Positions 1-10,435 of a stretch of 64,000 nucleotides of DNA are shown in pieces (positions within the stretch are counted from its first letter, which is position 1; every line of letters begins with the position of its first letter). The position numbers and the translations under genes were made by a program. The stretch comes from Lentzea albida (GTDB lineage Bacteria > Actinomycetota > Actinomycetes > Mycobacteriales > Pseudonocardiaceae): the NCBI RefSeq assembly GCF_900111005.1, contig NZ_FOFV01000002.1, forward strand, positions 496,001 through 560,000. The letters run 5' to 3'. The notes beneath the pieces are model-generated. The model saw nothing but the letters and a program-made list of their open reading frames with translations. It had not been told where the DNA came from and made no database searches.

Positions 1-85
1 GCAGGCTGAGCGTCAGTTCGTTCAGGGGCGACACGGCGAACCGCACGTCCACCATGTCGGACTCGCCGAGCACGAACTCGATCAT
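1..85 (-). CDS. N-terminus of an ArsR-like winged-helix regulator (partial)
   Basis: The minus strand reads MIEFVLGESDMVDVRF, then continues about 12 more residues to the window edge. The motif [IL]-x-F-x-L-x-[ED]-x-D-[LM]-x-x-[VT]-R-F-A followed by P-x-x-E-L is shared with the regulator at 21952-22872, so I place it in the same DUF5937/ArsR-type family, whose DNA-binding winged helix lies at the C-terminus (outside the window here). The start is the ATG at 85. It directly abuts a perfect inverted repeat, which suggests a short or absent leader and autoregulation. It is divergent from the phosphatase-like gene at 144. Only 28 codons are visible, so the family call is moderate. Confidence 0.6.
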   Translation of the reverse strand, partial: MIEFVLGESDMVDVRFAVSPLNELTLSL

Positions 86-101
86 GTAGCACAACGCTAC
101 A
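85..101. promoter_or_regulatory. Inverted repeat, probable operator
   Basis: TGTAGC-ACAAC-GCTACA is a perfect 6-bp inverted repeat that begins at the first base of the minus-strand regulator start codon and lies 42 bases before the plus-strand gene. Its position between divergent genes fits an autoregulatory site for the ArsR-like protein. The binding partner is inferred. Confidence 0.5.
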
Positions 102-143
102 TCAGTTACACCCGAAGGACACCTGGCGCGAAGCTTCGCGACC

Positions 144-875
144 ATGTGGACCGACATGTGCCTCGCGCTGCGGATCGCCCGCCGGGCAGCTGAACTGGTG
201 CTCTCCGCAGGCACTCCCGACGTGTGGCTGAAGGAGGACGGCAGCCCGGTCACGTCGATCGATCTCGAGGTCGAGGACCTGGTGCGCCGCCTGCTCGCGG
301 AGGCGGTGCCCGACGACGGTGTCGTGGGTGAGGAACGCGCCGAACACCGGGGAACCTCCGGTCGCCGGTGGCTGGTCGACCCGATCAGCGGCACCGCCGA
401 CTTCGTCGCCGGACGGCCGACGTACTCGGTGGACCTGGCCTTGGAGAAGGCGCTGGCCGTCTCCGTCATGCCGTCGCTGGACATCACGATGGCGGCCGGA
501 CGGGGCATCGGCTGCCGCGTTTTCCGTGCCGGAGAGGAAGAAGTCGCTCGTGTGTCCTCAACGGACGTAGTCGAAGGTGCGCGCGTGTGCCTACACGGCA
601 AGAGGAAACCCATTCTGGAGCGCTGCGCCGTCGTGGACGGGGCGACGTCCGTGCTGGACCTGATCACCGGCCGGGTGGACGCGGTGATCGCGGCGGGCGC
701 GGGCCTCGACGAGTTCGACCTGGCGTGCCTGCCGGTGCTCGTGGAGGAGGCGGGCGGCCGCGTGACGGTGGTCGAGGACGACGTCGTGCTGGCCACCAAC
801 GGTGTCCTGCACGACGCCTTCCTCTCCCTGCTGGTCGCGCGTCCTGGTGTCGAACCAGGCACCCCGGGCTCATGA
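144..875 (+). CDS. Inositol monophosphatase-like protein with an altered metal site
   Basis: The 243-residue protein has the inositol-monophosphatase / CysQ / histidinol-phosphatase-like fold signature: GEE at residues 62-64, WLVDPISGTADF around 76-87 and EFDLACLPVLVEEAGG around 190-205. Family members hydrolyse small phosphate monoesters using Mg2+ held by the Glu of GEE, two Asp of DPxDGT and an Asp near the C-terminus. Here DPxDGT reads DPISGT: the second Asp is Ser82, so one metal ligand is missing and activity may be changed or lost. A 14-base palindrome CGCGAAGCTTCGCG (127-140) lies just before the ATG, and no good ribosome-binding site is visible; Met5 is an alternative start. The last 14 codons overlap the opposite-strand tRNA-Met gene, and the C-terminal residues GVEPGT are what a tRNA T-arm encodes when translated. 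Confidence 0.72.
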   Translation: MWTDMCLALRIARRAAELVLSAGTPDVWLKEDGSPVTSIDLEVEDLVRRLLAEAVPDDGVVGEERAEHRGTSGRRWLVDPISGTADFVAGRPTYSVDLALEKALAVSVMPSLDITMAAGRGIGCRVFRAGEEEVARVSSTDVVEGARVCLHGKRKPILERCAVVDGATSVLDLITGRVDAVIAAGAGLDEFDLACLPVLVEEAGGRVTVVEDDVVLATNGVLHDAFLSLLVARPGVEPGTPGS

Positions 876-903
876 GGCCTGGGTGATCGCCGGATCCCGC
901 GCG
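835..903 (-). tRNA. tRNA-Met(CAU), short D-arm, third gene of the attenuated tRNA operon
   Basis: Read on the minus strand, the acceptor arms CGCGCG(G) and (A)CGCGCG pair over six bases, with a G-A mismatch at the seventh. The anticodon loop is CTCATGA (anticodon CAU after U33) on a five-pair stem with one A-C mismatch. The T-arm is perfect (CCTGG/CCAGG, loop TTCGACA), and CCA is encoded at 834-832. At 69 bases it is short because the D-arm collapses to a GATC/GATC stem with a four-base loop. C1 pairs with G72, so it resembles an elongator rather than an initiator. It lies one base after the encoded CCA of the His gene and overlaps the 3' end of the convergent phosphatase-like gene. It may be divergent or decaying. 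Confidence 0.68.
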
Positions 904-907
904 CTGG

Positions 908-981
908 AGTGACCGACCGGACTCGCACCGGCTTCGACCAGGACCACAACCTGGTGCCTCGACTGCTTCGGCTTCGGTCAC
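908..981 (-). tRNA. tRNA-His(GUG)
   Basis: On the minus strand the acceptor stem GTGACCGA/TCGGTCAC pairs over eight bases, the G(-1):C73 arrangement typical of tRNA-His. The anticodon arm CCAGG-TTGTGGT-CCTGG is perfect and carries GUG. The T-arm is GCCGG-TGCGAGT-CCGGT, with T54-G55 instead of T54-T55. The D-stem has three good pairs. CCA is present at 907-905 after an extra T, so the exact 3' end is either C909 or T908. It follows the Gln gene with only two bases between. Confidence 0.8.
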
Positions 982-983
982 GG

Positions 984-1056
984 CTGCCCGTCGAGGGTTC
1001 GAACCTCGATCTCCGCGTTCAGAGCGCGGTGTCCGTGCCAGTTGGACCAACGGGCA
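984..1056 (-). tRNA. tRNA-Gln(CUG)
   Basis: A complete 73-base cloverleaf on the minus strand: acceptor TGCCCGT/ACGGGCA (seven pairs), D-arm GTCC/GGAC with a GG-containing loop, anticodon arm CCGCG-CTCTGAA-CGCGG giving anticodon CUG, T-arm CGAGG-TTCGAAC-CCTCG, discriminator G. CCA is not encoded (CCG follows). The 5' end lies three bases after the T tract of the upstream attenuator terminator, so the primary transcript must be trimmed by RNase P from a leader that has just escaped termination. Confidence 0.87.
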
Positions 1057-1058
1057 TC

Positions 1059-1096
1059 AAAAAAGCCGCCTCGTCGCTGTGTGCGACGGGACGGCT
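1059..1096 (-). terminator. Attenuator terminator ahead of the tRNA operon
   Basis: On the minus strand AGCCGTCCCGTCGC-ACACA-GCGACGAGGCGGCT forms a 14-position stem with one mismatch and one G-U pair, directly followed by a run of six T. This is a textbook intrinsic terminator, rare in so GC-rich a genome, and it stands between the leader peptide and the first tRNA. Confidence 0.85.
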
Positions 1097-1131
1097 CCCC
1101 GGGACATGAGGGTCAGCTCATGCCGAGGAGC
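1094..1131 (-). promoter_or_regulatory. Competing (antiterminator) hairpin
   Basis: GCTCCTCGGCATGAG (1131-1117) pairs with CTCATG-TC-CCGGGGAGC (1110-1094) around the loop CTGACC: 15 pairs including one G-U, with a two-base bulge. Its last three bases (AGC, 1096-1094) are the first three bases of the terminator stem next to the T tract, so the two hairpins cannot both be complete. Its 5' arm contains the leader stop codon, so a ribosome finishing the leader would melt it, and a ribosome stalled upstream would leave it free to form. Confidence 0.65.
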
Positions 1132-1162
1132 ACCAGACGTGCTGATGGCGCATGTGTTGCAT
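1118..1162 (-). CDS. Leader peptide MQHMRHQHVWCSSA of the tRNA operon
   Basis: This 14-codon reading frame is preceded by GGAGGAAGGGAG. The GGGAG core (1176-1172) lies nine bases before the ATG at 1162 and six before an in-frame GTG at 1165, either of which could start it. Codons 2-8 are CAA CAC ATG CGC CAT CAG CAC: two Gln, three His and one Met among seven. These are the same three amino acids carried by the tRNAs downstream. The stop codon lies in the 5' arm of the competing hairpin and the terminator follows, the layout of a classic ribosome-stalling attenuator such as his or trp leaders. The peptide itself probably has no function. Confidence 0.78.
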   Translation of the reverse strand: MQHMRHQHVWCSSA

Positions 1163-1198
1163 CACGGCTGGCTCCCTTCCTCCGGTTCGTCGAGAACC

Positions 1199-1228
1199 AC
1201 TCTGACGGACGGCGTGGCGGGCTTGCAA
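1199..1228 (-). promoter_or_regulatory. Possible promoter of the leader-tRNA operon
   Basis: TTGCAA (1228-1223), an 18-base spacer and CAGAGT (1204-1199) resemble a housekeeping actinobacterial promoter and would place the RNA start about 25-30 bases before the leader start codon. The -10 match is imperfect. Confidence 0.35.
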
Positions 1229-1313
1229 CGCATTTTCAGTGATCGCAAAAGTTTGCAGACTTGATTTGATTCCTCCAGGAATCCTCAAGCCGACTTGCGG
1301 AAAACTTTTGCAA
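1223..1313 (+). promoter_or_regulatory. Palindrome-rich control region of the GH13 gene
   Basis: Three symmetric elements stand between the divergent tRNA operon and the glucosidase: GCAAA-AG-TTTGC (1245-1256, with TTGCAA at 1223-1228 nearby), GATTCCT-CC-AGGAATC (1268-1283, perfect) and TTGC...GCAA around GGAAAACTTTT (1295-1313). Repeated TTGC/GCAA half-sites resemble LacI-family (MalR-type) sugar-repressor operators. The repressor is not in the window. Confidence 0.45.
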
Positions 1314-1358
1314 CGTCTTTCCTGGACCGCTGACACACCTCACCCGGAAGGCATGGAC

Positions 1359-2900
<1,542 letters not shown>

Positions 2901-2927
2901 CCAGCGAATTCACGTGATCGACTAAAA

Positions 2928-2950
2928 CTGTCAGACCCCCTGGGTACCGT
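2928..2950 (+). promoter_or_regulatory. DNA-damage-type promoter of WGR-DUF4132 paralogue 1
   Basis: CTGTCAGAC-N8-TACCGT matches the LexA-independent (PafBC-dependent) damage promoter consensus TTGTCRGTG-N8-TANNNT known from mycobacteria, including the exact 8-base spacing. It lies 38 bases before the GTG start. The surrounding 39 bases recur almost unchanged before paralogue 3. Confidence 0.6.
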
Positions 2951-2988
2951 CCGTGGACATCAGCTCCAGGTCGGACTCAGGGGGTTTC

Positions 2989-5900
2989 GTGACAGGCAGG
3001 TGGGAGCTCGTCTCCGGCAACTCGGCCAAGTTCTGGGAGATCACCCGGAGCAGCACCGCGGTGACCGTCCGCTTCGGACGGCTGGGCGCGGCCGGGCAGA
3101 CCCAGACGAAGGAGCTGCCGTCCGAGGCCGCCGCGCAGGCGCACGTCGCGAAGCTCGTGGCGGAGAAGGAGAAGAAGGGCTACCGCAGCGTGGCCGCTGC
3201 GGCAGCCGCACCTCCTGCCGGCACCGGTCAGATCACGCCTCCCGCCGACGCCCCACCGGCGCACCCTCTCGCTGGGACTTGCCCGACCGGCTCTCCCGCG
3301 GGAACCTCCGTCGACACGTCCGCTGCCACCACGTCCGCCGCCGCACCTCCCACCCCCGCGTCTCCCGCCGCCGCACCTACCACCCCCGCGTCTCCCGCCG
3401 CCGCATCTCCCTCCCCCGCGTCTCCCGCCGCCGCACCTACCACCCCTGCGTCTCCCGCCGTCGCATCCCCCACCCCCACCTTCGCCGAGGACACCTGGGT
3501 CATGCCCGCCGCGTGGCTCGCCCAGGCGATGCCCCGACGCGACGCGCGGCCCCTGCCCGCCTTCACACCCGACCAGGCGATGGCGCGGAAGGTCCGCGAC
3601 CACATCGCCGCTGGCGCCGCGAAGATCTCCGAGGCCCTCACCTCACCGGACCACGACCCCGAACTGCTGCGAGCGCTGCGCCACCACGTCGAGGGCCGCC
3701 CCGACCCGCTGGGCGCCGCGACGCTCGTGAAGCTCGTCGGCTTCGACCACGAGATCTCGCCCGTGCACTGGTGGCTCGAGGACTTCGGCCTCCCGTTCGC
3801 CGCCACGGCGGCCATCCACCACGCGACGATCTACGACAGCCGCGGCCGGCTGCTGATCAACCTGCCACGCCACAGCCCGGAACACAGCGCCGAGAGCCGC
3901 GTGCTGATCGACATCCGCACCGCGCTGGCGGTGGCCGACGAGGCGACCTACGACGCGACCGTCACCGAGTTGGAGAAGGTCGGCACGAACTGGTTCGGCC
4001 AGGTCGCGCGGGCGTTCCTCGTCCCGACGCGCCACGACTGGTTCGAGGAGGCGAACCAGTCGTCGAGCTCGTACTGGATGGTGCACAGCTCGGCGAGCAC
4101 CCCCGACCACCTGAGCCGGCTGCAGTACGGCCACCTGATCTGGTCGGAGACCGCCGTGTACACGGCGCTACACCTGCTCGGCCCCGCCCTCGCCCCCGTG
4201 CTCGAGGCCGAACTGCGCGCGAAGGCCGAGTGGGGCGGGGAGCACCGCAGGCTGGCGCTCGACGTGCTGGCGGCCCTGCCGACCGACGAGGCGTTCCTGA
4301 TGCTGCTCAACCGCCTGCAGGAGCGGTACGTCCGGCCCGCGCTGGCCGCCGCGATGGAGGCGTTCCCCGCTCGTGCGCTGCGCCTGATGACGCCTCGCGC
4401 GGCGAACGACGCGGACGTCCGCAACCTGCTGCGCGCCCACCTCGTCAAACACCCCGGCCTGCCCGTCGCGGACGAGCTCGCCGCGCTGGTCGAGGTGAGT
4501 CCCGAAGCGCCGGTCGAGGCTCTTCCGCCGATCCTGGCCGAACCACCGTGGACGCGCCGCCGCCCGCAGGCGAAGCCCGTTGTGCTGCACGGTCTTCCGG
4601 TTCCCGACGCCCATCTCACGTGGTCGCCGGGTGAGCGTGAGGAGTGGTCGGCGGTCACGGGCTGGTGGTCGCGGCAGACCGGCGACTGGGAGTCGATGGC
4701 GGAGGCGATCCGCACCGGCAAGGGCTCCCGCTACGACCACAGGCTGTTCGAGGCCGGTCCGGAGGAGATCGCCCGGCCGTTGCTCGCCGTCTGGACGCCG
4801 AACGACACCTGGAACAGCGAAAGCTGGGGCAAGCGGATCGCGGCGCGGTTCGGCATCGACGCGCTCCCGGTGATGCTGAGGCTGGCGGCGAGCAACCCGC
4901 ACGTGTCCGGCGTCGTGCTGCTCCCCTACGCCACGCCCGAGGTCGCCGCGCTGATGGCGGACTGGTTCGTGCGCCTCAAGACCGCGCGCGCGTTCGCGCT
5001 CTCCTGGCTCGCCCGTCACCGCGAGGCCGCCGCCCGCCTCCTGCTGCCGGTCGCGCTGGGTGCGGCGGGCACGGCGCGCCGCAACGCCGAGTTCGCCCTG
5101 CGCCACCTCCACCTGGAGATCGGTGTCGACGTCATCGCCCTCGCCTCCACTCCCGAGGCGGGAGCGGCGATCCGCACGCTGATCGAGGTCGACCCGCTCG
5201 ACGTCCTGCCCGCGAAGCTGCCGTCGATCGGCGGCTGGGCCGATCTCAGGCTGCTGCCCCAGGTGCTGCTCGCCAACGGCGCCGGCGCGTTGCCCGCGGA
5301 CGCCGCGAAGAGCCTCCTGACGACGGTCGCGCTGTCCAAACAGGACGCCGTCTACCCCGGCCTGCCGCTCGCCGTCGAGGCGTGCGACCGCGCGTCGCTG
5401 GCCGAGTTCGCCTGGGCCCTCTTCGGCCTCTGGCAGGACGCGGGCACCCCGTCCAAGGACGGCTGGGTCCTCACCGCGCTGGGCTGGTTCGGCGACGACG
5501 AGACGGCGCGCCGCCTCGCCCCGCTGATCCGCGCGTGGCCGGGCGAGAGCCAGCACGCCCGCGCGGTGGCGGGCCTCGACGTGCTCGCCCAGATCGGCAG
5601 CGAGGTCGCGCTGATGAACCTGAACAGCATCGCGGAGAGGGTGAAGTTCAAGGGCCTCAAGGCGAAGGCGCAGGAGAAGGTGACCGAAATCGCCGCCGCG
5701 CTGGGCCTGAGCCGCGACCAGCTGTCCGACCGCCTCGTCCCCCGCCTGGGCCTCGACGAGGCCGCCAGCCTCGTCATCGACTACGGCCCGCGCCAGTTCA
5801 CGGTCGGCTTCGACGAACAGCTCAAGCCCTACGTCCTCGACGCGGAAGGCAAGCGCCGCAAGGACCTCCCGAAACCAGGTGCCCGCGACGACCAGGAGCT

Positions 5901-6648
5901 CGCCCCGGCGGAGCACAAGCGGTTCGCGACGTTGAAGAAGGACGTCCGCGCCATCGCCTCCGACCAGATCCACCGCCTGGAACGCTCGATGGTCGACCAG
6001 CGCACCTGGACCACGGCGGAGTTCCACGCGGTCCTGGCCGCCCACCCCCTGCTGTGGCACCTGGTCCGCCGCCTGGTGTGGATCACCGACACCGGCCTGA
6101 CCTTCCGCCTGGCAGAAGACCGCACCCTCGCGGACGCCTCCGACGACGAGGTCAGCCTGCCCGAGAACGCGGTCGTCCGCGTGGCCCACCCGATCGACCT
6201 GGCGGACACCCTCCCGGCCTGGGGCGAGGTGTTCGCGGACTACGAGATCCTCCAGCCCTTCCCGCAACTGGGCCGCCCCACTCACGCCTTCGCGCCGGGC
6301 GACACCATTCCCCAGCTCGCGAAGTACCTCAACAGGAACGTGCCGGTCGGCAAGGTCCTCGGCCTCACGAAGCGGGGCTGGGCACGCTGCCAGCCCCAGG
6401 ACAACGGCGTGGAGCCGTGGATGACCCGCTCACTGCCCTCCGGCGGCGCCCTGGTCGCCTCGCTCGACCCGGGCATCATCGTCGGGATGGTCGACTTGGA
6501 GCCGGAGATGCAGTTCAGCGCGCTCTGGTTCGACCCGGACGGCGCAGGCGCCTGGAGCCCGCCCAGGAACGGCACGCCGACCACCTTCGAAGTGGACGCC
6601 ATCACCGCCTCGGAACTCCTCTCGGAACTCGAGTCACTCCACGCCTGA
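2989..6648 (+). CDS. WGR domain-DUF4132 protein, paralogue 1
   Basis: 1,219 residues: an N-terminal WGR domain (about 1-65, RWELVSGNSAKFWEI, VRFGRLGAAGQTQTKE, ending KEKKGY), an Ala/Pro/Thr-rich linker (about 70-170), then a long helical repeat-like region and a C-terminal DUF4132 domain containing LGLDEAASLVIDYGPRQFTV and FADYEILQPFPQLGRP. WGR domains in PARP enzymes bind DNA ends near the catalytic site. DUF4132 is of unknown function and occurs in E. coli MolR and YehI. The start is GTG 2989 after AGGGGG, aligned with the GTG starts of the two paralogues; an upstream in-frame GTG at 2953 lies in the conserved promoter block. First gene of a probable seven-gene unit. A DNA-damage role is inferred from WGR plus promoter. 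Confidence 0.88.
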   Translation: MTGRWELVSGNSAKFWEITRSSTAVTVRFGRLGAAGQTQTKELPSEAAAQAHVAKLVAEKEKKGYRSVAAAAAAPPAGTGQITPPADAPPAHPLAGTCPTGSPAGTSVDTSAATTSAAAPPTPASPAAAPTTPASPAAASPSPASPAAAPTTPASPAVASPTPTFAEDTWVMPAAWLAQAMPRRDARPLPAFTPDQAMARKVRDHIAAGAAKISEALTSPDHDPELLRALRHHVEGRPDPLGAATLVKLVGFDHEISPVHWWLEDFGLPFAATAAIHHATIYDSRGRLLINLPRHSPEHSAESRVLIDIRTALAVADEATYDATVTELEKVGTNWFGQVARAFLVPTRHDWFEEANQSSSSYWMVHSSASTPDHLSRLQYGHLIWSETAVYTALHLLGPALAPVLEAELRAKAEWGGEHRRLALDVLAALPTDEAFLMLLNRLQERYVRPALAAAMEAFPARALRLMTPRAANDADVRNLLRAHLVKHPGLPVADELAALVEVSPEAPVEALPPILAEPPWTRRRPQAKPVVLHGLPVPDAHLTWSPGEREEWSAVTGWWSRQTGDWESMAEAIRTGKGSRYDHRLFEAGPEEIARPLLAVWTPNDTWNSESWGKRIAARFGIDALPVMLRLAASNPHVSGVVLLPYATPEVAALMADWFVRLKTARAFALSWLARHREAAARLLLPVALGAAGTARRNAEFALRHLHLEIGVDVIALASTPEAGAAIRTLIEVDPLDVLPAKLPSIGGWADLRLLPQVLLANGAGALPADAAKSLLTTVALSKQDAVYPGLPLAVEACDRASLAEFAWALFGLWQDAGTPSKDGWVLTALGWFGDDETARRLAPLIRAWPGESQHARAVAGLDVLAQIGSEVALMNLNSIAERVKFKGLKAKAQEKVTEIAAALGLSRDQLSDRLVPRLGLDEAASLVIDYGPRQFTVGFDEQLKPYVLDAEGKRRKDLPKPGARDDQELAPAEHKRFATLKKDVRAIASDQIHRLERSMVDQRTWTTAEFHAVLAAHPLLWHLVRRLVWITDTGLTFRLAEDRTLADASDDEVSLPENAVVRVAHPIDLADTLPAWGEVFADYEILQPFPQLGRPTHAFAPGDTIPQLAKYLNRNVPVGKVLGLTKRGWARCQPQDNGVEPWMTRSLPSGGALVASLDPGIIVGMVDLEPEMQFSALWFDPDGAGAWSPPRNGTPTTFEVDAITASELLSELESLHA
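3331..3480 (+). repeat. In-frame 30-bp tandem repeat in the linker
   Basis: Five imperfect copies of a 30-base unit (TCTCCCGCCGCCGCACCTAC plus ten bases ending CCCGCG) encode repeats of about ten residues like ASPAAAPTTP. It extends the disordered linker between WGR and the rest of the protein. Copy number can be expected to vary. Confidence 0.85.
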
Positions 6649-6674
6649 CATCGGGAACGGCCGGCCCACGGCCG

Positions 6675-6697
6675 GCGTCAGACCGGCTCGGCAACAC
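6675..6697 (+). promoter_or_regulatory. Degenerate copy of the damage-type promoter (paralogue 2)
   Basis: GCGTCAGAC-N8-CAACAC keeps the GTCAGAC core and the 8-base spacing of the other two sites but has lost the first T of both boxes and the last T of the -10. It lies 24 bases before the GTG of paralogue 2. A short hairpin CGGCCG-gccca-CGGCCG precedes it. Probably weak or non-functional, with read-through from paralogue 1. Confidence 0.35.
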
Positions 6698-6721
6698 CAA
6701 CGGATCAACAGGGAGCAGCAA

Positions 6722-9700
6722 GTGCGCAGGTGGGAGCTCGTCTCGGGCAGCGCGGCGAAGTTCTGGGAGATCGGCAGGGACGGCACCGCCGTCACCGTCC
6801 GCTTCGGACGCCTCGACACGAACGGCCAGACCCAGACCAAGGAGCTGGCCACCGCCGAGGCAGCCGCAGCACACGTCGCGAAGCTCGTGGCCGAGAAGGA
6901 GAAGAAGGGCTACCGCGCCGTGACGCCGACACCGGCAACGGAAACGGCGCAAGCCACCTCCCAGCAGCCTGCCACCAACGCAGGCTCGGCCACCGACCTC
7001 ACCACCGCGGGCAGCTCAGCCACCCAACTCGCCGCGACCACAGGCTCGGCCGCCCACCTCACCACCACCGCCAGCAACTCGGCCACCGGCCCCGCCTCCG
7101 CCAGCAGCTCAGCCACCCGCCCCGCCTCCAGCCACTCAGCTCCCCACACCGCCACCAACCCCGCTGCGACCTCCACCCCCAGCCCCGCCGCCGCCTCCAC
7201 CCCCTCCTCCCCCCAACAGCCCCTCCCCACCGACGAAGACACCTGGACCATGCCCAAGGCGTGGCTGCGCGACGTGGTCCGCCAACGCGGCTTCCACCCC
7301 GCCCCGGAGTTCGCCGTAGACCCCACCCTCGCCGAAGAAGCCCGCCGCCGAGCGGGCAAGCAACAAGCCACCACCGTCGAACGGGTCCTGTCCGAACCGG
7401 CCTCCGACCGCGACCTGGTCGAGGCGACGCGCGACCACCTCGCCGGCCGCCCGAACCCCACGGGCGCGGCGGCGGTGGCGGCCATCATCGGCTGCGGCGA
7501 GCAGTCGGTGCACGCCTGGATCGCCGACCACGGCGTGGCCTTCGCGACGGAGGCCGCGGTCGAGTTCACCATGCTGGCCTCCGCACCCGAGTGGCTCCCG
7601 CAGCAGCGCGAGTACGGCAACGAGCGCCTGACGACCCGCGGCGGCCACCTCCGCCTCACCTTCGACAACGTCGAGGGCAAGATGCTCAGGTCCGTCCGCT
7701 ACGCGCTCGCCACCGCGGACGACAGCGAGCGGGCCGAGGCCGCGGCGTTCCTCGAAAGGCTCGGCGAGCTGGACGACCCCAACGCGCAGATGGTGCGCAC
7801 CTTCCTGATGCCGGAGCGCGCCGACTGGTTCCAGGAGGCCTGCGCCGCACCGCATTCGAACAGCCGCTGGTGGGTCGTCCCGTGCAGCGCGAGCACGCTC
7901 GAGGAGTTCGAGCTGGCGCAGACCAGGGTGACCAACAGCAGCACCATCCTGCACACCGCGCTCTACGTGCTCGGCCCCGCGATCGCGCCGTTGCTCGCCG
8001 CGGCGCTCGACCACAAGCACCAGCTCGCCGATCGCCGCAAGACGGTGCTGAAAGTGCTCGCGGCGCTGCCCACCGACGAGGCGTTCACGATCGCGCTCGA
8101 CCGGATCGACGAGAAGTACGTGCGGCCGACGGTGCTGTCCATGATGGCGGCGTTCCCGGCGCGCGCGGCCCGGCTCCTCGGCGAACGCTCGAGTCGCAAC
8201 GCCGCTCTCCACCAGCTGCTCAGCGTGCACCTGAAGACGTACCCGCACCTCGAGGCACCCGAGGGGTTCGTCGACGTCGAGTCCGAAGCCGTGCCGGAGG
8301 CGCCGGCTGAGGCCCTGCCGGCGGTGCTGGCGTCGCCGCCGTGGACCAAGCGCAAGAAGCCCGTGAAGCCCGTGGTGGTGCCGGACCTGCCGGTACCCGG
8401 CCCGTCGCTCGTGTGGCTGCCGGGTGAACGGGAGGCGTGGTTGAAGGACGGTCACTGGGACACCCACGCCTACAAGACCTGGGAGCACTGGCTGGCGGAG
8501 TTCAAGGCCGGCCGGATCGGCTACCGGATGGCGGACCTGCTCATCGGCGCGCCCGAGGAGAAGGTGCGGCACCTGCTGGCCGACTGGGAGCCGCGGCTCG
8601 GCTGGAGCGCCGAGTCGGCGGGCAAGCGGCTGGCCGCGAAGTTCGGCTTCGACGCGTTGCCCCCGCTGCTGCGCATCGTGGAGCGGACGTCGGCGGCCGC
8701 GGTGGTCGTCCTGCCGTTCGCGACGCCCGAGGTGGCCACGCTGATGGCCGACTGGCTCGTGCGGCTCAAGCAGGTCCGCAAGACGGCGATGGCCTGGCTG
8801 GCCCGGCACCGGGACACCGCCGCACGCCTGCTCGTCCCCGCCGCCCTGGGCAAGCCCGGTGCCGAGCGCCGCAACGCCGAGGCCGCGCTCCGCCACCTGC
8901 ACGCCCTGGGAGTGGACGTGGTGGCCGTCGCACCGACTCAGGCCGCGGCCGAAGCCCTGGCGTCGTTCCTGGCCGTCGACCCGGTCGACGTGCTGCCCGC
9001 CAAGCTGCCCGTGATCGGCGAGTGGGCGGACACCCGGCTGCTGCCCCAGGTCCTGCTGCGCGACCGCAGGCAGGCGCTGTCCCCGGAGGCCGCGCGGAAC
9101 CTGCTGATGACGGCCGCGCTGTCCAAGCCGGGCGATGTCTACGCCGGGCTTCCGATCGCCCGCGACGTGCTCGACAGGGACTCCCTGGCCGAGTTCGCGT
9201 GGGCCGTCTTCCAGCGCTGGCAGGAGATCGGCGCGCCGTCGAAGGAGGGCTGGGCGCTCACCGCCCTCGGCTGGCTCGGCGACGACTCGACGGTCCGCGC
9301 GCTGGCGCCGTTGATCCGGGTCTGGCCGGGAGAGAGCCAGCACGCGAGGGCGGTGACGGGCCTCGACGTGCTCGCCGACATCGGCACCGAGGTCGCCCTG
9401 TCCCACCTCAACAGCATCGCCGAGAAGGTGAAGTTCAAGGGCCTCAAGACGAAGGCCCAGGAGAAGGTCGCCCAGATCGCCGAGGAACTGGGCCTGTCCC
9501 GCGACCAGCTGGCCGACCGGCTGGTGCCGCGCCTCGGCCTCGACGACGCCGCGAGCCTCGTCATCGACTACGGCCCCCGGCAGTTCACCGTCGGCTTCGA
9601 CGAACAGCTCAAGCCCTACGTCCTCGACCCGGACGGCAAGCGCCGCAAGGACCTCCCCAAGGCCGGTGCGAAGGACGACCAGGACAAGGCACCGCTGGAG

Positions 9701-10435
9701 CACAAGCGTTTCGCGGCACTGAAGAAGGACGTTCGCGCCGTGGCGTCGGACCAGATCCACCGCCTGGAACGCGCCATGGTCGACCAGCGCACCTGGACCG
9801 CGGCCGAGTTCCACACGGTCCTGGCCGGCCACCCGCTGCTCTGGCACATCGTCCGCCGCCTGGTCTGGATCACGGACGAAGGCCTCTCCTTCCGCCTCGC
9901 GGAAGACCGCACGCTCGCCGACTCCGGCGACGACGAGTTCACGCTCCCCGAGGACGCCACCGTCCGCGTCGCGCACCCGGTCGACCTCCGCGACGAGCTC
10001 GAAGCCTGGGGCGAGGTCTTCGCCGACTACGAGATCCTCCAGCCCTTCCCGCAGCTCGGCCGCCCTCTGCACCTGGTGTCCCAGAACGAGGACCTGCTGC
10101 CCCACCTCAAGAAGTACTGCGACGTCGACCACCCCGTCGGCAAGATCCTCAGCCTCACCAAGAAGGGCTGGATCCGCGGCGAGCCCCAGGACGGCGGCGT
10201 GGAGTGCTGGATCACCCGCCCGCTGCCGTCCGGCGGTGCCCTCGTCGCCTCGCTCGACCCCGGCATCGCGGTGGGCGCCATCGACGTCTTCCCGGAGCTC
10301 AAGTTCACCGAGCTCTGGTTCTCCGCCGACGGCCACGGCTACTGGTCCTCCCAGCGCAACGCCTCCGGCACCCTCACCACCGACGCCATCACGGCCTCGG
10401 AGATCCTGTCCGAACTGGAGTCACTGCACCAGTAG
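6722..10435 (+). CDS. WGR domain-DUF4132 protein, paralogue 2
   Basis: 1,237 residues with the same layout as its neighbours: WGR domain at about 1-63 (RRWELVSGSAAKFWEI), a Thr/Ala/Ser-rich low-complexity linker (about 65-170, TGSAAHLTTTASNSATGPAS), then TWTMPKAWLRDVVRQRGF, the helical region and the DUF4132 C-terminus (LGLDDAASLVIDYGPRQFTV; FADYEILQPFPQLGRP). Start GTG 6722, six bases after GGGAG. It is 73 bases downstream of paralogue 1, so co-transcription is likely. Core regions align almost without gaps to paralogues 1 and 3, while the linkers share no sequence. The function is not established for any member. Confidence 0.88.
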   Translation: MRRWELVSGSAAKFWEIGRDGTAVTVRFGRLDTNGQTQTKELATAEAAAAHVAKLVAEKEKKGYRAVTPTPATETAQATSQQPATNAGSATDLTTAGSSATQLAATTGSAAHLTTTASNSATGPASASSSATRPASSHSAPHTATNPAATSTPSPAAASTPSSPQQPLPTDEDTWTMPKAWLRDVVRQRGFHPAPEFAVDPTLAEEARRRAGKQQATTVERVLSEPASDRDLVEATRDHLAGRPNPTGAAAVAAIIGCGEQSVHAWIADHGVAFATEAAVEFTMLASAPEWLPQQREYGNERLTTRGGHLRLTFDNVEGKMLRSVRYALATADDSERAEAAAFLERLGELDDPNAQMVRTFLMPERADWFQEACAAPHSNSRWWVVPCSASTLEEFELAQTRVTNSSTILHTALYVLGPAIAPLLAAALDHKHQLADRRKTVLKVLAALPTDEAFTIALDRIDEKYVRPTVLSMMAAFPARAARLLGERSSRNAALHQLLSVHLKTYPHLEAPEGFVDVESEAVPEAPAEALPAVLASPPWTKRKKPVKPVVVPDLPVPGPSLVWLPGEREAWLKDGHWDTHAYKTWEHWLAEFKAGRIGYRMADLLIGAPEEKVRHLLADWEPRLGWSAESAGKRLAAKFGFDALPPLLRIVERTSAAAVVVLPFATPEVATLMADWLVRLKQVRKTAMAWLARHRDTAARLLVPAALGKPGAERRNAEAALRHLHALGVDVVAVAPTQAAAEALASFLAVDPVDVLPAKLPVIGEWADTRLLPQVLLRDRRQALSPEAARNLLMTAALSKPGDVYAGLPIARDVLDRDSLAEFAWAVFQRWQEIGAPSKEGWALTALGWLGDDSTVRALAPLIRVWPGESQHARAVTGLDVLADIGTEVALSHLNSIAEKVKFKGLKTKAQEKVAQIAEELGLSRDQLADRLVPRLGLDDAASLVIDYGPRQFTVGFDEQLKPYVLDPDGKRRKDLPKAGAKDDQDKAPLEHKRFAALKKDVRAVASDQIHRLERAMVDQRTWTAAEFHTVLAGHPLLWHIVRRLVWITDEGLSFRLAEDRTLADSGDDEFTLPEDATVRVAHPVDLRDELEAWGEVFADYEILQPFPQLGRPLHLVSQNEDLLPHLKKYCDVDHPVGKILSLTKKGWIRGEPQDGGVECWITRPLPSGGALVASLDPGIAVGAIDVFPELKFTELWFSADGHGYWSSQRNASGTLTTDAITASEILSELESLHQ

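Follow-up and report, generated by a model that had tools for sequence, protein, structure and literature searches.

Why would an operon of three tRNA genes carry, just upstream, a short open reading frame (ORF) made up largely of codons that its own tRNAs read? The question arises in the window, a stretch of 64,000 nucleotides from the 9.4 Mb genome of Lentzea albida, for which a sequence-only reading had proposed that a leader peptide senses the availability of tRNA-Gln, tRNA-His and tRNA-Met and thereby controls their genes. Here, we analyzed this locus, its counterparts in the window's family and a related set of operons in a second family.

Organization of the locus

On the minus strand, from position 1228 to 832, a probable promoter, the leader ORF, a terminator and the genes for tRNA-Gln(CTG), tRNA-His(GTG) and tRNA-Met(CAT) followed one another. 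The features were as follows.

1199..1228, minus: probable promoter, assigned by eye (−35 TTGCAA 1228–1223, 18 nt spacer, −10-like CAGAGT 1204–1199)
1172..1176, minus: Shine-Dalgarno sequence GGGAG (1176–1172), 9 nt 5′ of the ATG
1118..1162, minus: leader ORF MQHMRHQHVWCSSA, 14 codons (ATG at 1162, stop TGA 1120–1118)
1139..1159, minus: control codons 2–8 (CAA CAC ATG CGC CAT CAG CAC)
1117..1131, minus: antiterminator 5′ arm GCTCCTCGGCATGAG, including the stop codon of the leader
1094..1110, minus: antiterminator 3′ arm CTCATGTCCCGGGGAGC, overlapping the terminator base
1059..1096, minus: intrinsic terminator AGCCGTCCCGTCGC / GCGACGAGGCGGC plus T6 (T run 1064–1059)
1058..1138, minus: full attenuator, extent of the match to covariance model R1 (G000:C27:497058-497138, E 7.6e-9; the sequence is one of the 28 behind R1)
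984..1056, minus: auxiliary tRNA-Gln(CTG), by ARAGORN and the Rfam gathering search
908..981, minus: auxiliary tRNA-His(GTG), by cloverleaf search; unusual D and T loops, discriminator T
832..903, minus: auxiliary tRNA-Met(CAT), by ARAGORN; miniature D arm (GATC CGGC GATC), CCA encoded

The 14-codon leader with its ribosome-binding site was present as the sequence-only reading had described it, and so was the run Gln His Met Arg His Gln His at codons 2–8; an in-frame GTG at 1165 is a possible alternative start. The order of terminator and tRNAs was likewise correct, but the span assigned to them (984–1165) contains only the leader, the terminator and tRNA-Gln, tRNA-His (981–908) and tRNA-Met (903–832) falling outside it. 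Gln, His and Met together account for 6.4% of the codons in three neighbouring genes, and the probability of finding at least six of these residues among the seven leader codons 2–8 was 4.5e-7 for this set, which had been named beforehand. Since only 2 nt separate the T run from tRNA-Gln, no promoter fits between the terminator and the first tRNA gene. A consensus scan for promoters and terminators detected neither at the locus, presumably because of the poor −10 element and a mismatch in the terminator stem. tRNA-His was missed by ARAGORN and Rfam, and tRNA-Met was also missed by the Rfam gathering search; the latter gene is antisense to the end of an inositol-monophosphatase ORF (144–875; Pfam). 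Close to the tRNA promoter, repeated GCAAAAGTTTTCC / GCAAACTTTTGC sites were observed at 1223–1325, before a divergent gene on the plus strand (~1359–2900) that is putatively alpha-glucosidase-like; these sites are perhaps for a sugar regulator.

Conservation in Lentzea

The cassette was present in 23 of the 24 Lentzea genomes. Although the leaders varied in order and length (MQHMRHQHVWCSSA, MHQHQHDPVLLGTS, VRQHQHMQQLPELPS, MQHQHMHQPPELPDLT), Gln and His codons lay within codons 2–9 in all 23, and an internal Met codon in 21 (it was absent in L040 and L050). Relatives that keep the tRNAs and lose the leader or its Gln/His/Met codons, the outcome that had been named as telling against the proposal, were thus not what the genus showed. 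Eight cassettes had an extra tRNA-Cys, and the leader of each of the eight had an early Cys codon, mostly at the position where others have Arg; such a codon occurred in one of the 15 cassettes without tRNA-Cys, the exception being L039. The antiterminator of L050 carried the compensatory change CACGAG/CTCGTG. The T arm of the auxiliary tRNA-His was found at 43 named places, 20 in Lentzea and the remainder mostly in Amycolatopsis, Saccharothrix, Kibdelosporangium, Streptoalloteichus and Pseudonocardia. Matches to the tRNA-His pattern in Rhodococcoides, Streptomyces and one Rhodococcus (L131, L141, L142) had no array and were rejected.

Attenuators across the window's family

Covariance model R1, built from 28 attenuators, matched 168 of the 390 genomes of the window's family at E ≤0.01 and 153 at ≤1e-4, the former spread over 20 of 46 genera; in the 15 genomes with no match better than 1e-4, the matches may be due to chance. 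At least 177 R1 places were listed, of which 33 lay in the earlier loci, 120 were fetched and 24 were left out. The script found tRNAs downstream in 115 of the 120 fetched places (L152 and L187, among them, read on the wrong strand) and HNH genes were found in five (L157, L177, L200, L254, L255), while no rtcB occurred within the fetched stretches of this family. The search of relatives for cognate-codon leaders before tRNA operons, which the sequence-only reading had suggested, uncovered other such operons across the family.

The pairs named here are chosen examples, whereas the statistics below used all rows passing the filters. Leu-only operons (tRNAs Leu GAG, Leu CAG) had leaders with LLLL (L226), LLLLLLLL (L241) or LLLLL (L244); operons of Arg alone (Arg ACG; L217, L218, L225) had RRRR, and Arg plus Cys operons (L170, L181) had TRRCCSRS. 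Longer combinations were seen in L154 (Arg, Ser, Ser, Arg; leader MTSMRRHSRRSSSSSTGSPP), L163 (Arg, Pro, Phe, Ser, Ser, Arg; MSSRFSSRRPSPRPFSQVSDTGSPP) and L199 (Asp, Pro, Glu, Val; MPNVIDTAVFPEPERACSPP), and also in L097 (Leu CAA, Asn, Met), whose leader MTLMSNLMPGRDSPP has rare TTG codons and was matched by eye, outside the statistics. In the window's own genome, R1 matched strongly at only three places and weakly at a fourth (E 0.047); this genome has two more operons (loci L261 and L262), namely Arg(ACG)-Pro(TGG) with the leader MTSTPQRRPSSRPFAQVSSL and Trp-Gly-Leu-Leu with the leader MLTKAQLAGWRILALIAGGLLAVAWGSTP. Weak fits were L254 and L255, where tRNA-Cys alone, then an HNH gene, follows a leader with just two Cys codons. 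Eight loci with auxiliary or array tRNAs (L055, L082, L083, L084, L088, L089, L090, L099) had no recognised leader and terminator.

Large arrays reached 20–28 tRNAs in some relatives. At L081:3913-5688, within a large attenuated array, a TROVE (Ro60/Rsr) gene (E 7.7e-14) is preceded by a YrlA-like Y RNA (E 1.5e-7, under the gathering score); a TROVE/Ro60 gene and a Y RNA are parts known from RNA-repair operons. Ro60/TROVE genes did not prove to be a general partner: among 40 chosen genomes, 22 carry one, and by coordinates it lies inside an attenuated array in G131 only.

Leader codons follow the tRNA content of the operon

Leaders were selected on two features only, start codon and Shine-Dalgarno score, and the 168 leader/array pairs (R1 loci plus earlier loci) were collapsed into 96 clusters at 55% identity. 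Eight of the 120 R1 loci were dropped where the script found no tRNA or no leader (L145, L152, L177, L187, L200, L204, L212, L245); the script misread the strand of L152 and L187, both of which fit by eye. Thirteen of 46 earlier loci were also dropped, among them L057, L064, L080, L094 and L097, whose leaders were missed by the regular expression, and L079 was kept with a wrong start picked by the script.

With the start codon and the last codons left out, 40.1% of leader codons were cognate to tRNAs of the same operon, compared with 23.1% when leaders were shuffled among arrays (96 clusters; sd 0.009, 0/5000, z = 18). Shuffling within array-size classes gave a mean of 0.240 (z = 14.8); in arrays covering four amino acids or fewer, the cognate fraction was 0.325 against 0.157 shuffled. 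In contrast to the coding frame, frame +1 (0.230 vs 0.225, z = 0.6) and frame +2 (0.223 vs 0.221, z = 0.3) showed no match, and chance or base composition was rejected for the window's family by this frame control. The central claim, that leader codons match the operon's own tRNAs, was thus borne out: the match is conserved in Lentzea and tracks tRNA content over 96 leader clusters, in the coding frame only.

Tabulated for arrays of at most 12 amino acids, with Phe not included, a cognate codon was present in the leader for 306 of 323 array/amino-acid pairs, compared with 781 of 1444 pairs in which the tRNA was missing from the array. All 19 tabulated amino acids but Thr were enriched (p < 0.05) when their tRNA was present; for example, a Tyr codon occurred in 14/14 leaders with tRNA-Tyr in the array and in 8/79 without. 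The match extended in part to isoacceptors. TTG was found in five of six arrays with Leu-CAA vs 2/22 with other Leu tRNAs, and CTG, CGG and CGC/CGT/CGA also matched their isoacceptors (p < 0.005 against other isoacceptors), as did AAA in a few rows (3/3 vs 1/7). For Gly, Ala, CAA and GAA, codon choice was not in line with the isoacceptor; for Leu-GAG, Ser, CAG, Pro, GAG and Val, the match fell short of significance. Along the leader, cognate enrichment was about twofold at 7–15 codons before the stop and 1.3- to 2.1-fold further upstream, and was absent at 1–6 codons before the stop (1.07, 0.92), where the antiterminator arm sits. Such an absence from the last six codons would be expected if a stall has to leave the antiterminator arm free.

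Upstream of the leaders, TTGAC occurred within 110 nt of the leader start in 75 of the 96 clusters (7.1 expected from shuffles), in 70 of those 75 at a distance of 53–71 nt; the window, which has TTGCAA, is not among the 75.

Two overlapping hairpins and a proposed switch

In attenuators of the window's family, the leader ORF ends in a segment (consensus GGCTCCCCGCC ATGAC) that pairs with GTCAT..GGGAGCC, and the GGGAGCC segment doubles as the 5′ base of the terminator, whose consensus is AGCCGCCC ATCGG GAAA CCGAT CCGGGCGGCT TTT. The two structures overlap by only 4–6 nt, at the stem base. Both hairpins showed compensatory changes. In the antiterminator, 92.0% of cells were paired, with 18 double-change cells against 4.7 in shuffles (0/500); in the terminator, 94.0% were paired, with 11 against 3.2 (0/500). 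Counted as pairs with double changes, the numbers were four for the antiterminator and three for the terminator, which 35 and 80 of 500 shuffles reached, respectively.

We propose the following order of events. Transcription would start upstream of the 14-codon leader. When Gln-, His- and Met-tRNA are available, the ribosome would reach the stop codon and cover the antiterminator 5′ arm, whereupon the terminator would form and transcription would end before tRNA-Gln. A ribosome halted on the Gln/His/Met codons would instead leave the end of the ORF free to pair with CTCATGTCCCGGGGAGC; the terminator base would then be occupied, and RNA polymerase would read through into the tRNAs.

Intermediate folds, with the polymerase just past GGGAGCC, were scorable for 87 of the 96 clusters. 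A stall near codon 6 left the segment paired in 86/87, against 18/87 when the ribosome stood at the stop; these intermediates are in favour of stall-induced readthrough, and the equilibrium folds mostly are not. For the complete RNA at equilibrium, the terminator usually won (basal pairs 0.70 behind a stalled ribosome vs 0.98), and the window's own stalled fold still had 12 terminator pairs ending at the T run. As the equilibrium fold favours the terminator even when the ribosome is stalled, the order of folding must matter. The locus has a leader ORF with ribosome-binding site and control codons, a terminator before the regulated gene, and an overlapping antiterminator with its 5′ arm in the ORF, as expected of an attenuator; the regulated genes, however, are tRNAs and not genes that make, import or charge the sensed amino acid.

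Auxiliary tRNAs

The window's genome has housekeeping genes for Gln-CTG, His, Met, Arg-ACG, Pro-TGG, Trp, Gly-TCC and Leu beside the attenuated copies, in a comparison that leaves out one tRNA place on C36. The auxiliary tRNAs were strongly diverged from the housekeeping ones, and those for Trp, Met and Cys had miniature D arms around CGG. Double changes were found at 13 (Trp), 10 (Met) and 13 (Cys) of 17 stem pairs, in a search that itself demands mostly paired stems, and at seven of 17 pairs among 28 distinct sequences of the auxiliary tRNA-His. By eye, the anticodon loop equalled the housekeeping loop in three of nine attenuated tRNAs of the own genome; therefore, resistance by loop mutation is not general.

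Several unusual tRNA genes were also observed. The window's tRNA-His has a T discriminator (908) and a C before position 1 (982), with C73 in some relatives; the usual tRNA-His identity pair is G-1:C73, which the window's gene therefore lacks. Leu-anticodon tRNAs with a short variable loop stand beside a long-armed tRNA-Leu in L262 (own genome, C21:19985-20132), L273, L276 and L277. Furthermore, tRNA-like genes in L204 (~500–640), L065 (minus strand) and L054:1409-1527 share a conserved insert of ~60 nt near the anticodon loop (GCGCCCGC..GCGGACATGGG.GCGCTTCC), for which there was no Rfam name. Unusual tRNA structures are known, according to excerpts of PMC7609411.

A second family and RNA repair

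Outside the window's family, 34 genomes had an R1 match, and 21 were opened (including G403, which is L288) together with L286 and L287. In family f15, which belongs to the same order as the window's family and is perhaps Micromonosporaceae, 10 of 11 places had a leader, a terminator and a tRNA, rtcB or HNH gene; L299 had none of these. Matches in f16 (8), f8 (2) and f31 (2) were rejected as ordinary terminators with no tRNA close behind. L286 had one weak Glu-like place 470 nt downstream by our own tRNA finder and none by ARAGORN.

Covariance model R2, made from ten f15 sequences, matched 105 of 200 f15 genomes at E ≤0.001, the weaker matches being mostly candidates, and the 30 best places were opened. 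By script, all 30 had a leader, 28 had tRNAs, 11 had rtcB downstream on the same strand, usually with a tRNA between, and seven had an HNH gene. RtcB of L302, after a leader and tRNA-Trp, matched Pfam with E 2e-100, and HNH of L316 with E 3e-13; L323 and L335 had a leader, a terminator and rtcB, and no tRNA. Good single fits were L310 (Leu, Leu, Ala; MSGQALLAAPLGLDCLYPALLAASGGRPH) and L305 (Gln, Ser, Arg, Pro, Ser; MMRQPSPAPQPRSSLRGGRCPAVTASSVPSRRCRWSG). Over 16 clusters, the codon match in f15 was weak and not frame-specific (0.404 vs 0.357, 35/5000; frame +2, 62/5000). Here, the end of the leader is able to pair along the entire terminator 5′ arm, for which L319 and L344 in their stalled folds are examples, and the terminator still won in 16 of 22 equilibrium folds.

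HNH endonuclease genes of one kind were observed behind attenuators in both families, with or without tRNAs, in the five R1 loci given above and in L316, L328, L333, L339, L343, L345 and others. Another observation concerns the tRNA 5′ of rtcB, which has a Trp anticodon in L319 (G581) and CCC (Gly) at the same place in L320 (G403); the L320 tRNA is perhaps decaying or recoded.

Relation to known systems

The his, trp, leu and ilv operons have leader-peptide attenuators, and RtcB RNA-repair operons express their RNA ligase on RNA damage, under RtcR control. Unlike the latter operons, rtcB in f15 lies behind a leader-peptide attenuator, usually also with a tRNA. T-box riboswitches also link uncharged tRNA to readthrough, whereas here the sensor is a translated ORF; a T-box was ruled out, as positions 1–10000 of the window gave no covariance match to it at the gathering threshold, only to tRNA. 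In Streptomyces lividans, leader peptides precede leuS, trpS, alaS and thrS (PMC8079986, in excerpt). Amino-acid and synthetase leader attenuators resemble the present one in having a short ORF with control codons, an overlapping antiterminator and terminator, and ribosome position as the sensor. They differ in what is regulated, which here is a set of tRNA genes and elsewhere rtcB or HNH, and in the control codons, which here are those that the tRNAs of the same operon read; these codons frequently stand for more than one amino acid at once and shift with tRNA content.

The Anabaena trn operon of 26 genes is, similarly, a silent auxiliary tRNA operon beside a housekeeping set; it is induced by translational stress and controlled by the DNA-binding repressor TrcR, in contrast to the cis-acting, codon-specific control proposed here, and the excerpts of the source make no mention of a leader, attenuation or terminator (PMC10272220). 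Arrays in Mycobacterium, its phages and plasmids (PMC5966550, PMC9569102, PMC12803027, all in excerpt) are likewise actinobacterial clusters in which extra tRNA genes are densely packed, frequently together with an HNH gene, and an antidefence role has been proposed for them. Leader and attenuation are not mentioned in the excerpts of the three, nor is a terminator in those of PMC5966550 and PMC9569102; unlike a mycobacterial array, with its very large set of tRNA genes and often a GOLLD RNA, the window operon has three tRNAs and no GOLLD RNA (Rfam). Phage tRNAs resist host anticodon nucleases, according to excerpts of PMC10264068, and the spare tRNAs could likewise replace cleaved host tRNAs; unlike phage tRNAs, they are kept in 23 of 24 genomes of a genus, under an attenuator. 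The sequence-only reading named no classical case, and in our search of open-licence PMC papers, several seen as excerpts, no tRNA genes under the control of a leader peptide came up either; the repressor-controlled Anabaena operon came closest.

What the attenuator may sense

The anatomy, the conservation, the in-frame codon-to-tRNA match, the compensatory changes in both hairpins and rtcB in the second family are read from the DNA itself. We consider it highly probable that the attenuator lets an operon of spare, diverged tRNAs switch on upon shortage of its own tRNAs. We infer that stalling leads to readthrough, and the signal is most likely too little usable cognate tRNA, arising from tRNA cleavage. 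tRNA damage is favoured because the products are tRNAs and, elsewhere, RtcB, and this trigger gains weight because a related attenuator precedes rtcB in f15. A stalled ribosome signals a lack of charged tRNA from any cause, so that starvation and antibiotic stress are also candidate signals.

The same attenuator might respond to amino-acid starvation through uncharged tRNA, the spares being better-charged isoacceptors or a source of uncharged tRNA for the stringent response. Indeed, a stalled ribosome cannot distinguish missing from uncharged tRNA, and the S. lividans synthetase leaders cited above are consistent with such a signal; however, extra tRNA supplies no amino acid, the recognised partners (rtcB, HNH and TROVE, with few neighbours annotated) include none that is biosynthetic, and large arrays such as L086, with 28 tRNAs, sense nearly all amino acids together, so we regard starvation as a rather unlikely signal. 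General translational stress appears no more probable. Here, the operons would be silent reserves induced by ribosome-targeting antibiotics, as the Anabaena operon is by translation-targeting ones, and the codon match would only tune which stalls count. Antibiotics also slow translation of the leader, but a generic stall sensor needs neither codons that track its own tRNAs nor an RNA ligase.

A homeostatic feedback, in which the operon would replenish tRNA whenever fast growth drives demand above supply, is quite improbable. The same logic would yield negative feedback by the product tRNA, but the auxiliary tRNAs are strongly diverged, with their miniature D arms in Trp, Met and Cys, and the few R1 attenuators of the own genome mean that housekeeping tRNAs are not under such control. 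Finally, we give almost no credence to chance or shared ancestry, that is, co-inheritance of related leaders and arrays without functional coupling, since, although the loci are related (as their collapse into clusters shows) and frame +2 in f15 scores almost like frame 0, the alternative frames of the same DNA show no match in the window's family, cognate enrichment ends at the antiterminator arm, and Cys codon and tRNA-Cys covary within one genus, L039 being the case of a Cys codon without the tRNA.

Returning to tRNA damage as the preferred trigger, we modestly favour a wider view of these operons as modular, self-addressed tRNA replacement and repair. Selection would rewrite the leader upon gain or loss of a tRNA, and where toxins, rival bacteria or defence nucleases of the cell itself destroy particular tRNAs, their structurally altered replacements would be induced and, in f15, also RtcB. 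On the sequence evidence, this would be ribosome-mediated attenuation of auxiliary tRNA (and RNA-repair) operons through the operon's own codons, a variant of the classical attenuators in which the regulated genes are tRNAs. As far as the open-licence PMC literature shows, no earlier case is on record in which tRNA genes are controlled in cis, and codon by codon, by how much of their own products is available; the spare tRNAs are probably made only when precisely these tRNAs become scarce in the cell. An operon's leader offers a reading key that predicts its tRNA content. The purpose of extra tRNA sets in actinobacteria becomes directly testable, since each leader spells out which tRNA losses count, and rtcB ties these sets to RNA repair. 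Such leaders could also act as reporters for tRNA-attacking toxins and synthetase inhibitors.
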